Origin: Brevundimonas intermedia
Lineage (GTDB): Bacteria > Pseudomonadota > Alphaproteobacteria > Caulobacterales > Caulobacteraceae
DNA: 64,000 nucleotides
Assembly (NCBI RefSeq): GCF_027922165.1
Contig: NZ_BSFD01000002.1
Location: 292,874 to 356,873 of the forward strand
Direction of reading: 5' to 3'
This document shows positions 40,966 through 44,735 of this stretch, one piece after another (position 1 is the first letter of the stretch; every line of letters begins with the position of its first letter). Under the pieces are notes generated by a model, which saw nothing but the letters and a program-made list of their open reading frames with translations, had not been told where the DNA came from and ran no database searches. The translations under genes were made by a program, and so were the position numbers.

Positions 40966-41307
40966 ATGTTTGGATCCAAGCCCGCCTCTCCGGCCGATCG
41001 ACGCGGCGAACCCCGCCGGTCCGCCAACGCCCGAGGGGTGGTCTGCGCGCCCGGCATCGAAACCGCCTGTCTGATCGTCGATCTTTCGGGGGCGGGCATG
41101 CGGCTGAGGCTCGATCGGGGCGCGGCCCTGCCGTCCGAGGTGGTGGTGGTCGATGTCGCCGAGGCCGTGGCCTATCCCGCGACCGTCGTCTGGCAAAAAG
41201 GACAGGAGGCGGGCCTGAAACAAACCGGCGCCAAATCGCTCCGCGGCCTGGCGCCGGCCCGCCTTATCCCCGCCCGCGACGCCTGGCTGAGGGCGGGGGG
41301 GCGTTAG
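40966..41307 (+). CDS. PilZ-domain protein (probable c-di-GMP binder)
   Basis: 113 residues from the ATG at 40966. Both c-di-GMP motifs are present: RGEPR (RxxxR, about residues 14-18) and DLSGAG (D/NxSxxG, about 44-49). The remaining beta-barrel segments are VVVVDVAEAVAYPATVVW and ARLIPARDAWLR. The protein is a single PilZ domain, as expected for a stand-alone receptor affecting motility or surface behaviour. It lies 53 bases after the helical gene. Confidence 0.78.
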   Translation: MFGSKPASPADRRGEPRRSANARGVVCAPGIETACLIVDLSGAGMRLRLDRGAALPSEVVVVDVAEAVAYPATVVWQKGQEAGLKQTGAKSLRGLAPARLIPARDAWLRAGGR

Positions 41308-41330
41308 CCTCGACGGCTCACCTCTCTTTC

Positions 41331-41503
41331 CTTTCGTCATTCCGGGCGAAGCGCAGCGGAGACCCGGAACCCAGCGGCGCCGAAGGCGAAATGGGTCCGC
41401 CGCAGGATGCTGAAAGATCGAGACCGCGACAGGTTCGCGCTCTCGCGCGCCGCTGGGTTCCGGGTCTTCGGGCCAAGCGGCCCTCCGCCCGGAATGACGA
41501 AAG
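41331..41503. repeat. 173-bp palindromic intergenic element, copy A
   Basis: The ends are CTTTCGTCATTCCGGGCG and its complement. Left arm 41331-41380, core 41381-41446 (66 bp), right arm 41447-41503. The inner arm ends carry the inverted 20-mer GACCCGGAACCCAGCGGCGC. Copy B at 44006-44178 has nearly identical arms in the same orientation, but its core is inverted relative to A. It contains no gene. Confidence 0.88.
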
Positions 41504-41564
41504 ATGTTGGGGGTAGCGCGCACAATGACGCTGCTTCCACCTCAAAGAATTCAACGCGCTAACA

Positions 41565-41698
41565 GAATCTCACCCCCCGCTCCTAACCACCCCTCAACCC
41601 CCCCGCATAATCTCCCCGGTCTCGTCGCTAGGAGGGCTCGTAAGGCCTGCGACCTTGCGGCGGCGGGAGCGTAGGGATCAGGGGCGGGGGTGAGATTC
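41565..41698. repeat. 134-nt inverted-repeat hairpin, unknown function
   Basis: The arms 41565-41584 and 41680-41698 pair over 19-20 positions with one bulge and one mismatch; the outer part GAATCTCACCCCC matches exactly. The interior is C-rich and then G-rich. It lies in a 750-base stretch without a convincing gene. Confidence 0.5.
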
Positions 41699-41730
41699 CC
41701 TCGCGCCGCATGACGGTGCATCGGTGGGCT

Positions 41731-41960
41731 CATCCCGCGCAGAAACGTCGGCGGAGGACTCGGGGTTAGGAACCCGGTCGCACTCGGGACGGTCCTTCGC
41801 AGGGATCGCCGACCTGACGCAGGCCTTGGGGAAGAGGCATCACAACTGCCGCTTCAATATCCCCGGCCGGCAGAAACACCCTGCGCGCGGAGCGTCTGTC
41901 TTCGTCGAAACGGTAAAAACTAATCCATCCCGGGCGAGGCCCGGCGCTCCGTCCTGCCCT
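41731..41960. ncRNA. Candidate structured RNA or unidentified conserved-looking stretch
   Basis: No ORF here has supporting features. The sequence has several local pairings: GGGTT/AACCC (41764-41775), CCTG/CAGG (41813-41823), and an extended hairpin from GGGGAAG (near 41829) to TCCCC (41860-41864) whose inner stem is GGCA/TGCC. A CCGGGC/GCCCGG hairpin ends it at 41930-41944. It resembles an RNA gene but does not match tmRNA, RNase P RNA or SRP RNA motifs I looked for. The strand is uncertain. Confidence 0.25.
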
Positions 41961-42058
41961 CCACACTTCGCAGCGAAAGCGCGTCGTCGCCTCCGCACGC
42001 CCTGTAGCCTTCCATCGCCCAAACCCTTAAATGCCGTCCCCTGACGAAAGATCGCCCC

Positions 42059-42544
42059 GTGACGCCCGACGATTTCGAACTCGATCTCCCGCAAGACCTC
42101 CAGGACGGCCTGATCGCCGTCGGCGAGGCTGCGCGCGATCTCGATCAGCCCTGGTGGATCTTCGGCGGGGCGGCGATGGCCCTGTACGGCCTTACCGACC
42201 TGCATGTGCCCGACATCGACGTCCTGTGCGCCCCGCGTGACGCCCGCGCCCTGCTGGCGGCCCTGGACGGCCAGATCGTGCCCGATCCGGGCGAGGGCCT
42301 GTTCCGCTCGGCCGTCTTCGGCCGCGCCCCGGACCAGCCGATCCTGGTCGAGGTCATGGCCGATCTGGAGACCCGCGACGGCGCCGAATGGCGGCCGGTC
42401 GCCTTTACGTCGCGCCGTCCGGTCTTCATCGACGACGTGCCGCTGTTCGTGCCCGACATCCGGGACCATATCGCCCTTTACCGCCTGTTCGGCCGCCCCA
42501 AGGATCTGGCGCGGATCGAACAGCTTGAACGACTGATCGCCTGA
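42059..42544 (+). CDS. Nucleotidyltransferase-fold protein
   Basis: 161 residues from a GTG start. The segment [20 protein letters not shown] then DIDVLC has the GG...DxD arrangement of minimal nucleotidyltransferases (AbiEii/MNT-like). The C-terminus ([20 protein letters not shown]) resembles their helical tail. Its stop overlaps the tgt ATG, so the two are coupled. Whether it is catalytically active or belongs to a toxin-antitoxin or tRNA-related function is not clear; no antitoxin partner is visible. Confidence 0.7.
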
Positions 42545-43653
42545 TGCCCTTCCCCTTCGAGATTTCCGCCAAACAAGGCCGCGCCCGCACCGGCGTGCTG
42601 AAGACCGCGCGCGGCGACATCCGCACCCCCGCCTTCATGCCCGTCGGCACTGCGGCGACGGTCAAGGCCATGACGGTGGACCAGGTCAAGGCGACCGGCG
42701 CCGACATCATCCTTGGCAACACCTATCACCTGATGCTGCGCCCCGGCCCCGAGCGGATGGAGCGTCTGGGCGGGCTCCACAAATTCATGGGCTGGGACAA
42801 GCCGATCCTGACCGACAGCGGCGGCTTCCAGGTCATGTCCCTGGCCGGGATTTCGAAGGTGAAGGAAGAGGCCGTGACCTTCTCCTCCCACATCGACGGC
42901 TCCAAACACGTCCTGACGCCCGAACGCTCGATCGAGATCCAGGCCGACCGGATCGGCGCCGACATCTCGATGCAACTGGACCAATGCGTCTCCTGGCCGG
43001 CCGAGCGGGACGCGGCCCAGAAAGCCATGGAGCTGTCGATCCGCTGGGGCGCCCGGTCCAAGGCCCGGTTCGGCGAGCGGGAGAACCAGGCCCTGTTCGG
43101 CATCCAGCAGGGCTCGACCTATGAGGACCTGCGCCGCCAGTCGTCGGATCAGCTTCAGGAGATCGGCTTCGACGGCTACGCCATCGGCGGCCTGGCCGTG
43201 GGCGAGGGCCACCAGGCCATGTGCGCGGTCCTGGACTATGCGCCCGAGATGCTGCCCGCCGACCGGCCGCGCTATCTGATGGGGGTGGGCAAGCCGATCG
43301 ATCTGGTCGAGGCCGTCTATCGCGGCGTGGACATGTTCGACTGCGTCCTGCCCACCCGCGCCGGTCGCCACGGCCAGGCCTGGACCTGGGACGGGCCGCT
43401 GAACCTGAAGAACGCCCGCTTCGCCGAGGACCAGGATCCGCTCGATCCCGCCATCGACGGGCCGTCGTCGCAATATTCAAAGGCCTATCTGCACCACCTG
43501 ATCCGCGCCGACGAAATCCTCGGCAAGGTCCTGCTCAGCTGGCACAATATCGCCTTCTACCAGGCCCTGACCGCCGCCATGCGCACCGCGATCTCCGAAG
43601 GCCGATTCGAACAGTTCCGCCGCGACTTCCACGCGCGGCATGTGTCGAACTGA
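42544..43653 (+). CDS. tgt: tRNA-guanine transglycosylase Tgt, lacking the zinc-site cysteines
   Basis: 369 residues. The substrate pocket has [11 protein letters not shown] (Asp91), [10 protein letters not shown] and [10 protein letters not shown], and the nucleophile Asp266 lies in [17 protein letters not shown]. The zinc-binding region, CxCxxC in Zymomonas and Escherichia Tgt, reads [20 protein letters not shown] (residues 299-318). All three Cys are gone and one residue is deleted, although the His remains. Tgt exchanges G34 for preQ1 in Asp, Asn, His and Tyr tRNAs. The start overlaps the nucleotidyltransferase stop. Activity without zinc is plausible but untested. Confidence 0.92.
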
Positions 43654-43655
43654 CC

Positions 43656-43964
43656 ATGCGCATCGAGAAGTCAGGCTTCCACGCCTACAACACCTATCTG
43701 GAAGAGCCGCCCCGCGACGCGGGGAATGAGACGGCCCTGCACCGCCACGTCATCATCATCGGCGGCGACAAATATTCCTTCTTCGCCCACTGGTCCGGCA
43801 AGTTCGCGCACAAGGGCGAACGGATCTCCTTCAACTGGGACTGGGACCGGACCGGCGAGTTCCGCAACATCGACAAATCCTCCTTCGAGGCCTTCGCCAA
43901 GGACGGCGCGGTTCAGATCAGAGGCGATCGCACCGACAAGCGCCGGCCTGCCGGCAGACGTTAG
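43656..43964 (+). CDS. Hypothetical protein directly after tgt
   Basis: 102 residues, ATG two bases after the tgt stop. It has beta-strand-like segments ETALHRHVIIIGGDKYSFFA and GERISFNWDWDRTGEFRNID, no signal peptide and no known motif. The tight spacing suggests that it is co-translated with tgt. Element B starts 42 bases downstream. Confidence 0.68.
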   Translation: MRIEKSGFHAYNTYLEEPPRDAGNETALHRHVIIIGGDKYSFFAHWSGKFAHKGERISFNWDWDRTGEFRNIDKSSFEAFAKDGAVQIRGDRTDKRRPAGRR

Positions 43965-44005
43965 ATCCCGTCGGTCATGGGTCGAACCGCTAAGCCGCCC
44001 CTCCC

Positions 44006-44178
44006 CTTTCGTCATTCCGGGCGCAGCGCAGCGGAGACCCGGAACCCAGCGGCGCGCGAGAGCGCGAACCTGTCGCGGACTCGATCTTTCAGCATCCTGC
44101 GGCTTACAGATTTCGCCTTCGGCGCCGCTGGGTTCCGGGTCTTCGGGCCAAGCGGCCCTTCGCCCGGAATGACGAAAG
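44006..44178. repeat. 173-bp palindromic intergenic element, copy B
   Basis: Same length and ends as copy A. Left arm 44006-44055 differs from A by one base; right arm 44122-44178 differs by one base. The core 44056-44121 matches A only when reverse-complemented (61 of 66 bases). It lies between the hypothetical gene after tgt and the lipoprotein gene, 2.5 kb from A. Confidence 0.88.
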
Positions 44179-44189
44179 GTGTGGGAATT

Positions 44190-44735
44190 CTACCGCTTCG
44201 GCCGGAACCAGCTCGGCGCCGCCGGCGGGGCGCAGTTCCTCTGCATGCCGATCCCCTTCAGAAACGCCCGCCGCATCCGCCCCGACTGGATGGCCGACTG
44301 GACATGGCGACTGTGCTGGTCGGCCCCGCTCAGCCGGCGGATCCAGCTGCGGCCCGGAATGAAGTCGGTGGTCGTGCCGCGAATGGCGTCCAGCGTCGCC
44401 TTGGCCGCCGCATCGGCCGCCCGTTCGCTGGCGTAGGAGCCGTCCTGGCGCGGCGGTTCGTCGGTGTCGGGCCCCAGGGCCTCGTCCAGCCGCGCCACCT
44501 CGGCCCCGATGGTGGTGCACTGGTTCAGATTGCGCAGGTCATAGGGATTGGCCTCGGCCTGCAGCAGGACCGTCGGAATCAGCTGGCGGCGCAAATTGAA
44601 GTCGTCCAGCGGCGCGGTGACCGCCTCGCCAAATCCAGCGCCCACCTGCTCCGCCCCGCCCATGGCGGACCGGCCGGCGTTGCAGCTGGACAGGACGACG
44701 ACGGCCGCAAGGGCCGGCAAAAGGATCGGCTTCAT
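44190..44735 (-). CDS. Putative lipoprotein
   Basis: 181 residues. The signal peptide ends in a lipobox VLSSC (Cys18). The mature part has LNQCTTIGAEVARLDEALGP and a conserved-looking GTTTDFIPGRSWIRRLSGA, with a further Cys near the C-terminus (GMQRNCAPP). It probably sits in the outer membrane facing the periplasm. I do not recognise a domain. Its stop lies 12 bases from element B. The small membrane-protein gene lies upstream on the same strand. Confidence 0.68.
   Translation of the reverse strand: MKPILLPALAAVVVLSSCNAGRSAMGGAEQVGAGFGEAVTAPLDDFNLRRQLIPTVLLQAEANPYDLRNLNQCTTIGAEVARLDEALGPDTDEPPRQDGSYASERAADAAAKATLDAIRGTTTDFIPGRSWIRRLSGADQHSRHVQSAIQSGRMRRAFLKGIGMQRNCAPPAAPSWFRPKR

Follow-up and report, generated by a model that had tools for sequence, protein, structure and literature searches.

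A dispersed family of hairpin-forming repeats in Brevundimonas carries its spacer in either orientation

Two 173 bp palindromic elements in a 64 kb stretch of the Brevundimonas intermedia genome (the whole stretch of DNA that was analysed, hereafter the window) are not a special pair; they are members of a Brevundimonas family of dispersed hairpin-forming repeats, in which a spacer (core) of approximately 66 bp is held in either orientation between two unequal, inverted arms. We observed many copies of the element, equal numbers of the two forms, a gradient between core identity and form, stable orientation at true orthologues and re-occupation of sites by other copies. We consider it probable (about 0.72) that the spacer orientation of this family has been rarely reshuffled over evolution, rather than being set by a regulated switch, and that the family is a long-loop variant of the CGTC-tagged REP heterodimers.

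The left copy, A, lies at positions 41331–41503 of the window and the right copy, B, at 44006–44178. In A, a left arm on the forward strand (41331–41380, with CGTC at 41335–41338) and a right arm on the reverse strand (41447–41503) enclose a forward-strand core (41381–41446). B is made up of a left arm (44006–44055, forward), a core that is inverted relative to that of A (44056–44121, reverse) and a right arm (44122–44178, reverse). Recalculation returned the geometry given in an earlier note on this DNA: both copies are 173 bp long, the left arms are identical at 49 of 50 positions and the right arms at 56 of 57, in each case on the same strand, and the cores agree at 61 of 66 positions as reverse complements versus 11 of 66 on the same strand. 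The likeness of the two cores is not a matter of chance, as the best other ungapped 66-base match to the A core in the window, B aside, was only 34 of 66. The inverted 20-mer that the note had placed at the inner arm ends is contained in an exact inverted repeat of 21 bp (AGACCCGGAACCCAGCGGCGC), the longest in both copies, with its halves at 41360–41380 (forward) and 41447–41467 (reverse) in A and at 44035–44055 (forward) and 44122–44142 (reverse) in B. The outer ends of each copy form an exact terminal inverted repeat of 17 bp, and in both arms the CGTC tag lies there. Folding of both strands, a check proposed in the same note, found A and B strongly hairpin-forming on all four strands in comparison with shuffled sequences (z −10.2 to −10.9).

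A two-armed copy consists of an S arm, a core of ~66 bp and an L arm, the arms being CGTC-tagged REP-like hairpins with a short and a long loop, respectively, and inverted repeats of each other. In both A and B the left arm is S and the right arm is L. The loops in A measure 16 nt (S) and 23 nt (L), and the L loop holds a hairpin of its own (GGGCCAAGCGGCCC, at 41470–41483 in A and 44145–44158 in B). Most arms begin with TTTCGTCAT, and the pattern GTCATTCCGGGCNNNG had 86 matches in the B. intermedia genome versus none for a reversed control. The stem TTCCGGG/CCCGGAA comprises seven pairs, with the preceding A opposite C. By stem the arms fall into two main families, CCGGG and CTCCGG, around the same type of core, which is conserved at its ends and variable in the middle, and tracts of approximately 10 bases adjoin the element, pyrimidine-rich before it and purine-rich after it. 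Parsing of 12 genomes gave a census of 146 copies, 141 two-armed and five one-armed; 136 of the 141 were S/L heterodimers, versus the 50% expected if arms were combined at random, and in 127 of these 136 both arms had CGTCA (unparsed arms were scored as misses). Each of the five SS copies pairs two different short arms, and two identical arm types were found in none. GANTC, the CcrM site, was present in 28 of 44 cores from the B. intermedia genome (mononucleotide-shuffle mean 9) and in 62 of 136 cores overall (shuffle mean 27), directly before a conserved CGCGAC in 25 of the 28 and 56 of the 62; B carries it as GACTC at 44078, and the A core is without it. Five B. intermedia elements have an extra small hairpin of the CGTC kind inserted left of the core, within the arm; the outer arm is of type S in L097 and of type L in L099, L100, L102 and L105. 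A regular expression run over the 12 genomes returned eight such inserts (seven left and one right) and missed L100, G033_L203 (left) and G028_L233 (right).

The B. intermedia genome holds at least 45 copies on eight contigs, one further copy cut by a contig end having been dropped. Copy A as query gave 104 alignments, which were often the two strands of one palindrome, and the core as query gave 40 places; scoring covered 40 of 89 first-look candidates in the former search and 40 of 51 in the latter, so the count is a minimum. Matches shorter than 40 nt and cores shorter than 50 nt were dropped, 50 of 53 match places were taken in from one set and 50 of 50 from another, and parsing yielded 44 copies at first and 45 finally. 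A match to the element at E≤0.001 was found in 52 of 61 sampled genomes of the genus, B. intermedia included. The nearest relative, G033, is at 97% in tgt. A 25-mer spanning the inner arm and the start of the core was present in 35 stretches in named GTDB records, of which 33 were titled Brevundimonas, one was a Caulobacterales MAG and one another MAG. Judged by these sequence matches, the family is a Brevundimonas-centred dispersed repeat. The search of this and related Brevundimonas genomes that the earlier note had called for thus brought out a dispersed family with both core orientations present (68 versus 68, see below). That A and B bracket a block of nucleotidyltransferase, tgt and hypothetical genes is true as a layout; the bracketing looks incidental, given the number of copies in the genome. 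Clusters of four, three and two elements in the same direction were seen at G000:C4:8532-9726, C2:453230-453920 and C6:217301-217747, and all elements within each were of one form (SL, as defined next).

With the core as reference, A has the form S-core-L (SL) and B the form L-core-S (LS). The B. intermedia copies comprised 26 SL, 18 LS and one SS, and the 146 copies from 12 genomes comprised 68 SL, 68 LS, five SS and five one-armed, after eight arms missed by the parser had been typed by eye and one copy parsed as LL had been reset to LS. Neither form should have been favoured by the searches, the queries being cores. Form followed core identity. Among copy pairs with a core identity of ≥0.95, 2 of 39 were of opposite form; with falling identity these numbers became 17 of 68, 70 of 209 and, at 0.86–0.89, 240 of 586, and further down, to 0.80, 682 of 1336 and 1123 of 2127, approximately half below 0.86; copy pairs are not independent, and these fractions are descriptive. 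At core identity ≥0.92, 19 of 107 pairs were of opposite form, versus a mean of 54 and a minimum of 31 in 2000 shuffles. A core tree built by a quick method, weak in that cores are only ~66 bp long, required 25 changes of form versus 45.9±3.0 (minimum 38) in 200 shuffles. The nearest core within the B. intermedia genome was of the same form in 29 of 38 cases, six tandem copies being excluded (shuffle mean 18.5, p 0.004). Form is therefore inherited with the core, drifting as cores diverge.

Orthologous sites, defined by flanks matched on both sides, provided 77 pairs at 22 sites, which we divided at a core identity of 0.88, a cut set after the identities had been seen. All 17 pairs at or above the cut (nine sites) keep the core orientation, as do all five pairs between 0.84 and 0.88 (three sites). 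Of the 60 pairs below the cut, 32 are inverted (nine sites) and 28 are not, and every inverted one has a core identity of 0.83 or less. Mean core identity in these 60 less related pairs was 0.789, versus 0.789 for 8935 non-orthologous pairs between genomes, and flanks of orthologous sites had a median identity of 92% (5th–95th percentile 85–96%); flanks that are alike around cores that resemble random ones indicate that one site is often occupied by different copies in different species. The changes took several shapes: arm orientation kept around an inverted and different core (identity 0.79–0.83; five pairs, three sites), core orientation kept with arms swapped (0.79–0.86; five pairs, three sites), and core and arms both turned (23 pairs, seven sites). 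So no flip of the same core was caught between species, and sites are re-occupied in random orientation. The site of B itself has been re-used: among 30 tgt loci, eight carry a CGTC-type repeat, of several sorts, after the tgt/hypothetical genes (the B. intermedia copy, L142, L151, L152, L157, L158, L159 and L162). In G073 and G020 this site is a short gap without an element; the bases adjoining the element vary, and no target-site duplication could be fixed.

Of 145 cores compared with that of copy A, the seven closest are all LS and the eighth is SL, and on this count A looks re-oriented. Its S arm is identical to that of another B. intermedia copy, L027 (C1:109895), and its L arm is two bases apart; the two copies also share roughly a dozen bases at the junction with a neighbouring unit of 480 bp, plus the unit itself (468 of 499). 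The L027 core is inverted relative to that of A (58 of 65 aligned positions, two gap columns), and the two copies are unlike in their left flanks. Arms and core follow one another in L099 as they do in L027, and in L024 the whole element is turned. The comparison of A with L027 supports a re-orientation beside homologous DNA and would be compatible with simple inversion or with exchange with another copy. The long-arm variant of A (GGAG) occurs in six SL and no LS copies in the B. intermedia genome, and in 10 SL and two LS copies over the 12 genomes.

The unit of ~480 bp directly to the right of A (window 41515–41985) is itself present in several copies. The B. intermedia genome has five full or nearly full copies, the others being 91–95% identical to that of the window over the unit and 98–99% over the inner 346 bases; three are found in G108, and several at approximately 70% identity in other genomes of the genus. 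Matches were obtained in 13 of 120 genomes of the order, from two genera, those in the second genus extending only over 68–94 bases. Units of the B. intermedia type have a long open frame that is not kept in the diverged group. RNAalifold on nine copies, which are essentially two sequence groups, predicted 105 pairs over ~340 nt, 13 of them with two-sided changes, and a CATAAT box precedes this fold. The best Rfam match over the unit had an E-value of 1.4. The unit may be a gene for a structured RNA of an undescribed kind, with copies that evolve in concert. Upstream of the unit at G000:C11:172182 and in G108 the CGTC element is absent, and the palindromic repeats CCTCCCC/GGGGAGG and CTTCTCCC/GGGAGAAG are found at the same side.

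Gene context, called with a home-made codon scorer that is crude and left 40 of the 136 copies without a call, was convergent for 30, tandem for 56 and divergent for 10 of the remaining 96. In tandem contexts the core runs along transcription in 29 copies and against it in 27 (p 0.89), and the L arm comes first in 35 versus 21 (p 0.08). Core orientation appears to be neutral, and the distribution fits hairpins near gene 3′ ends that would have no orientation-dependent role. Between 41200 and 44300 no sigma-70-like promoter site was found, a weak result with 0.2 expected by chance, and no T-tailed terminator-like site was found versus 1.8 expected, which leaves a terminator role without that kind of support. 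The six neighbouring ORFs gave Pfam matches to PilZ, a nucleotidyltransferase (below cut-off), TGT and ROK; none matched a recombinase, two being without any Pfam match. Membership of the element in an Rfam family was considered and rejected, the only match at E≤1 being a weak one to sR36 (E 0.5; 16.7 bits versus a cut-off of 55).

Under the reading that we prefer, rare reshuffling, inverted CGTC-tagged arms, one with a short and one with a long loop, would accept the ~66 bp spacer either way round because each arm is an inverted repeat of the other. Re-orientation would be rare but recurrent, presumably a side effect of recombination through the arms or of template switching there, and it would more often come about by core exchange or re-occupation of sites, to which we give about even odds, than by inversion of a resident core. 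A single crossover or arm-to-arm conversion was rejected as the source of the two forms, since it would leave equal arm pairs; 136 of 141 two-armed copies are heterodimers, and none was seen with identical arm types. Simple inversion in place, in which the resident core flips via template switching or recombination at the inner 21 bp repeats and then diverges, is an account that we regard as possible but doubtful. Those inner repeats are exact in both A and B, heterodimers are left intact as inversion predicts, and A and L027 have the same arm order and unit junction with an inverted core whose identity (0.89) is near that of the unit (0.94). However, none of the 17 orthologous pairs with clearly related cores is inverted, all inverted cores among the 77 pairs are at or below 0.83, and cores below the 0.88 cut are collectively no closer than random copies (0.789 for both). 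The GGAG arm of A, which in its own genome is confined to SL copies, yet belongs to an element whose core groups with LS, weakly suggests a mosaic (10 SL and two LS over 12 genomes). Of the claim in the note, the inversion of core against arms stands, and the analysis found it to recur throughout the family, A itself looking re-oriented; the flip of one and the same core is the part that was not caught between species.

Read as an active switch, the "small invertible element" of that note is not supported. Phase variation by a dedicated recombinase acting on neighbouring genes would explain a segment that is flanked by inverted repeats and found in both orientations, but orientation, compared with one genome per species, is stable among related copies (17 of 17 orthologous pairs, and 37 of 39 near-identical copy pairs at ≥0.95 of the same form) and random to transcription (29:27), at least 45 copies are dispersed, and the six neighbouring ORFs and the interval 41200–44300 yielded neither the Pfam recombinase nor, more weakly, the promoter-like site that it calls for; we judge it highly improbable. 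Hardly more credible is the idea that these are REPINs moved by a RAYT (Y1) transposase: the paired, inverted, REP-like hairpins are intergenic and multi-copy as it requires, but at E≤0.001 Y1_Tnp (PF01797) is absent from the B. intermedia genome and present in only 4 of 131 genomes of the genus, versus 5 of 14 control genomes, and the tag is CGTC, not GTAG. The other possibility raised in the earlier note, a non-autonomous palindromic repeat moved by a transposase encoded elsewhere, was close as to the kind of repeat, and no transposase was identified to go with it. Independent assembly, with arms and spacer joined anew at each site, orientation random from the start and nothing inverted, would account for the 68:68 ratio of forms, for the different copies or CGTC-type repeats that the same sites hold in different species, and for related spacers with arms of another stem family (CTCCGG instead of CCGGG). 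We nevertheless hold it to be unlikely, because form is inherited with the core (25 changes versus 45.9 in shuffles), so that each copy spreads as one unit, and changes of form occur within lineages. A more far-reaching version of rare reshuffling, which we put forward only as a speculation with the odds against it, is that the inverted arms may serve as a docking frame for a spacer cassette; copies would exchange this cassette either way round and without a recombinase, and the intergenic sites of Brevundimonas would hold constantly reshuffled hairpins under selection only for unequal arms. Equal spacer orientations, together with the decay of orientation with divergence, could serve as a clock for recombination of such palindromic repeats, and the almost invariable pairing of unequal arms may offer a way to test why heterodimers are favoured.

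Several described systems resemble these elements in part. As presented by Bertels and Rainey (2011, PMC3116915), REPINs consist of two inverted REP sequences and a spacer that form one hairpin, as here, are proposed to spread as a unit, and have their movement tied to RAYT transposases; the REPs within them are of the GTAG type (PMC3733652). The present family is unlike REPINs in its CGTC tag and in that a RAYT was not found in the B. intermedia genome.

The CcrM-associated intergenic repeats (CIRs) of Caulobacter reportedly go back to Chen and Shapiro in 2003. In the accounts of PMC2229807 and PMC10969869 they are ~110 bp long, with two arms and a linker, and no terminal inverted repeat is listed for them; a Caulobacterales host, intergenic location, structure and GANTC in many cores are features that the present family shares. 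The 173 bp element closes end to end, and A lacks GANTC, which sets the family apart from CIRs as described there. Compared with MITEs as outlined in PMC10969869, no target-site duplication was definable, and the search for a parent transposon covered Y1 transposases; the elements are, like MITEs, short, dispersed, bounded by terminal inverted repeats (17 bp, exact) and present or absent at a given site among relatives.

The closest likeness is to the CGTC-tagged REP dimers of Di Nocera et al. (2013, PMC3733652), which are described as common in, and predominantly from, alpha-proteobacteria and apparently without a dedicated transposase. That class is characterised by the CGTC tag, a palindromic stem of 8–9 bp with complementary AT in the first and second position, and a loop of 4–5 nt with exceptions. 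Neither Brevundimonas nor Caulobacter is named in the main text of that paper, figure species lists aside, and no description of spacers in two orientations was found in it or in the literature searched, to which subscription journals were mostly external. Shared features are the CGTC tag beside a palindromic stem, a CCA-like tail, mostly intergenic location, a conserved and often structured spacer (mostly 20–100 bp in theirs), the frequency of heterodimers, and no dedicated transposase, the search here having been for Y1 transposases in the B. intermedia genome. The loops of the present family, at 16 and ~23 nt, are unlike the 4–5 nt given in PMC3733652; because of this loop length we place the family in none of the four groups recognised there and take it as a long-loop variant of the class.
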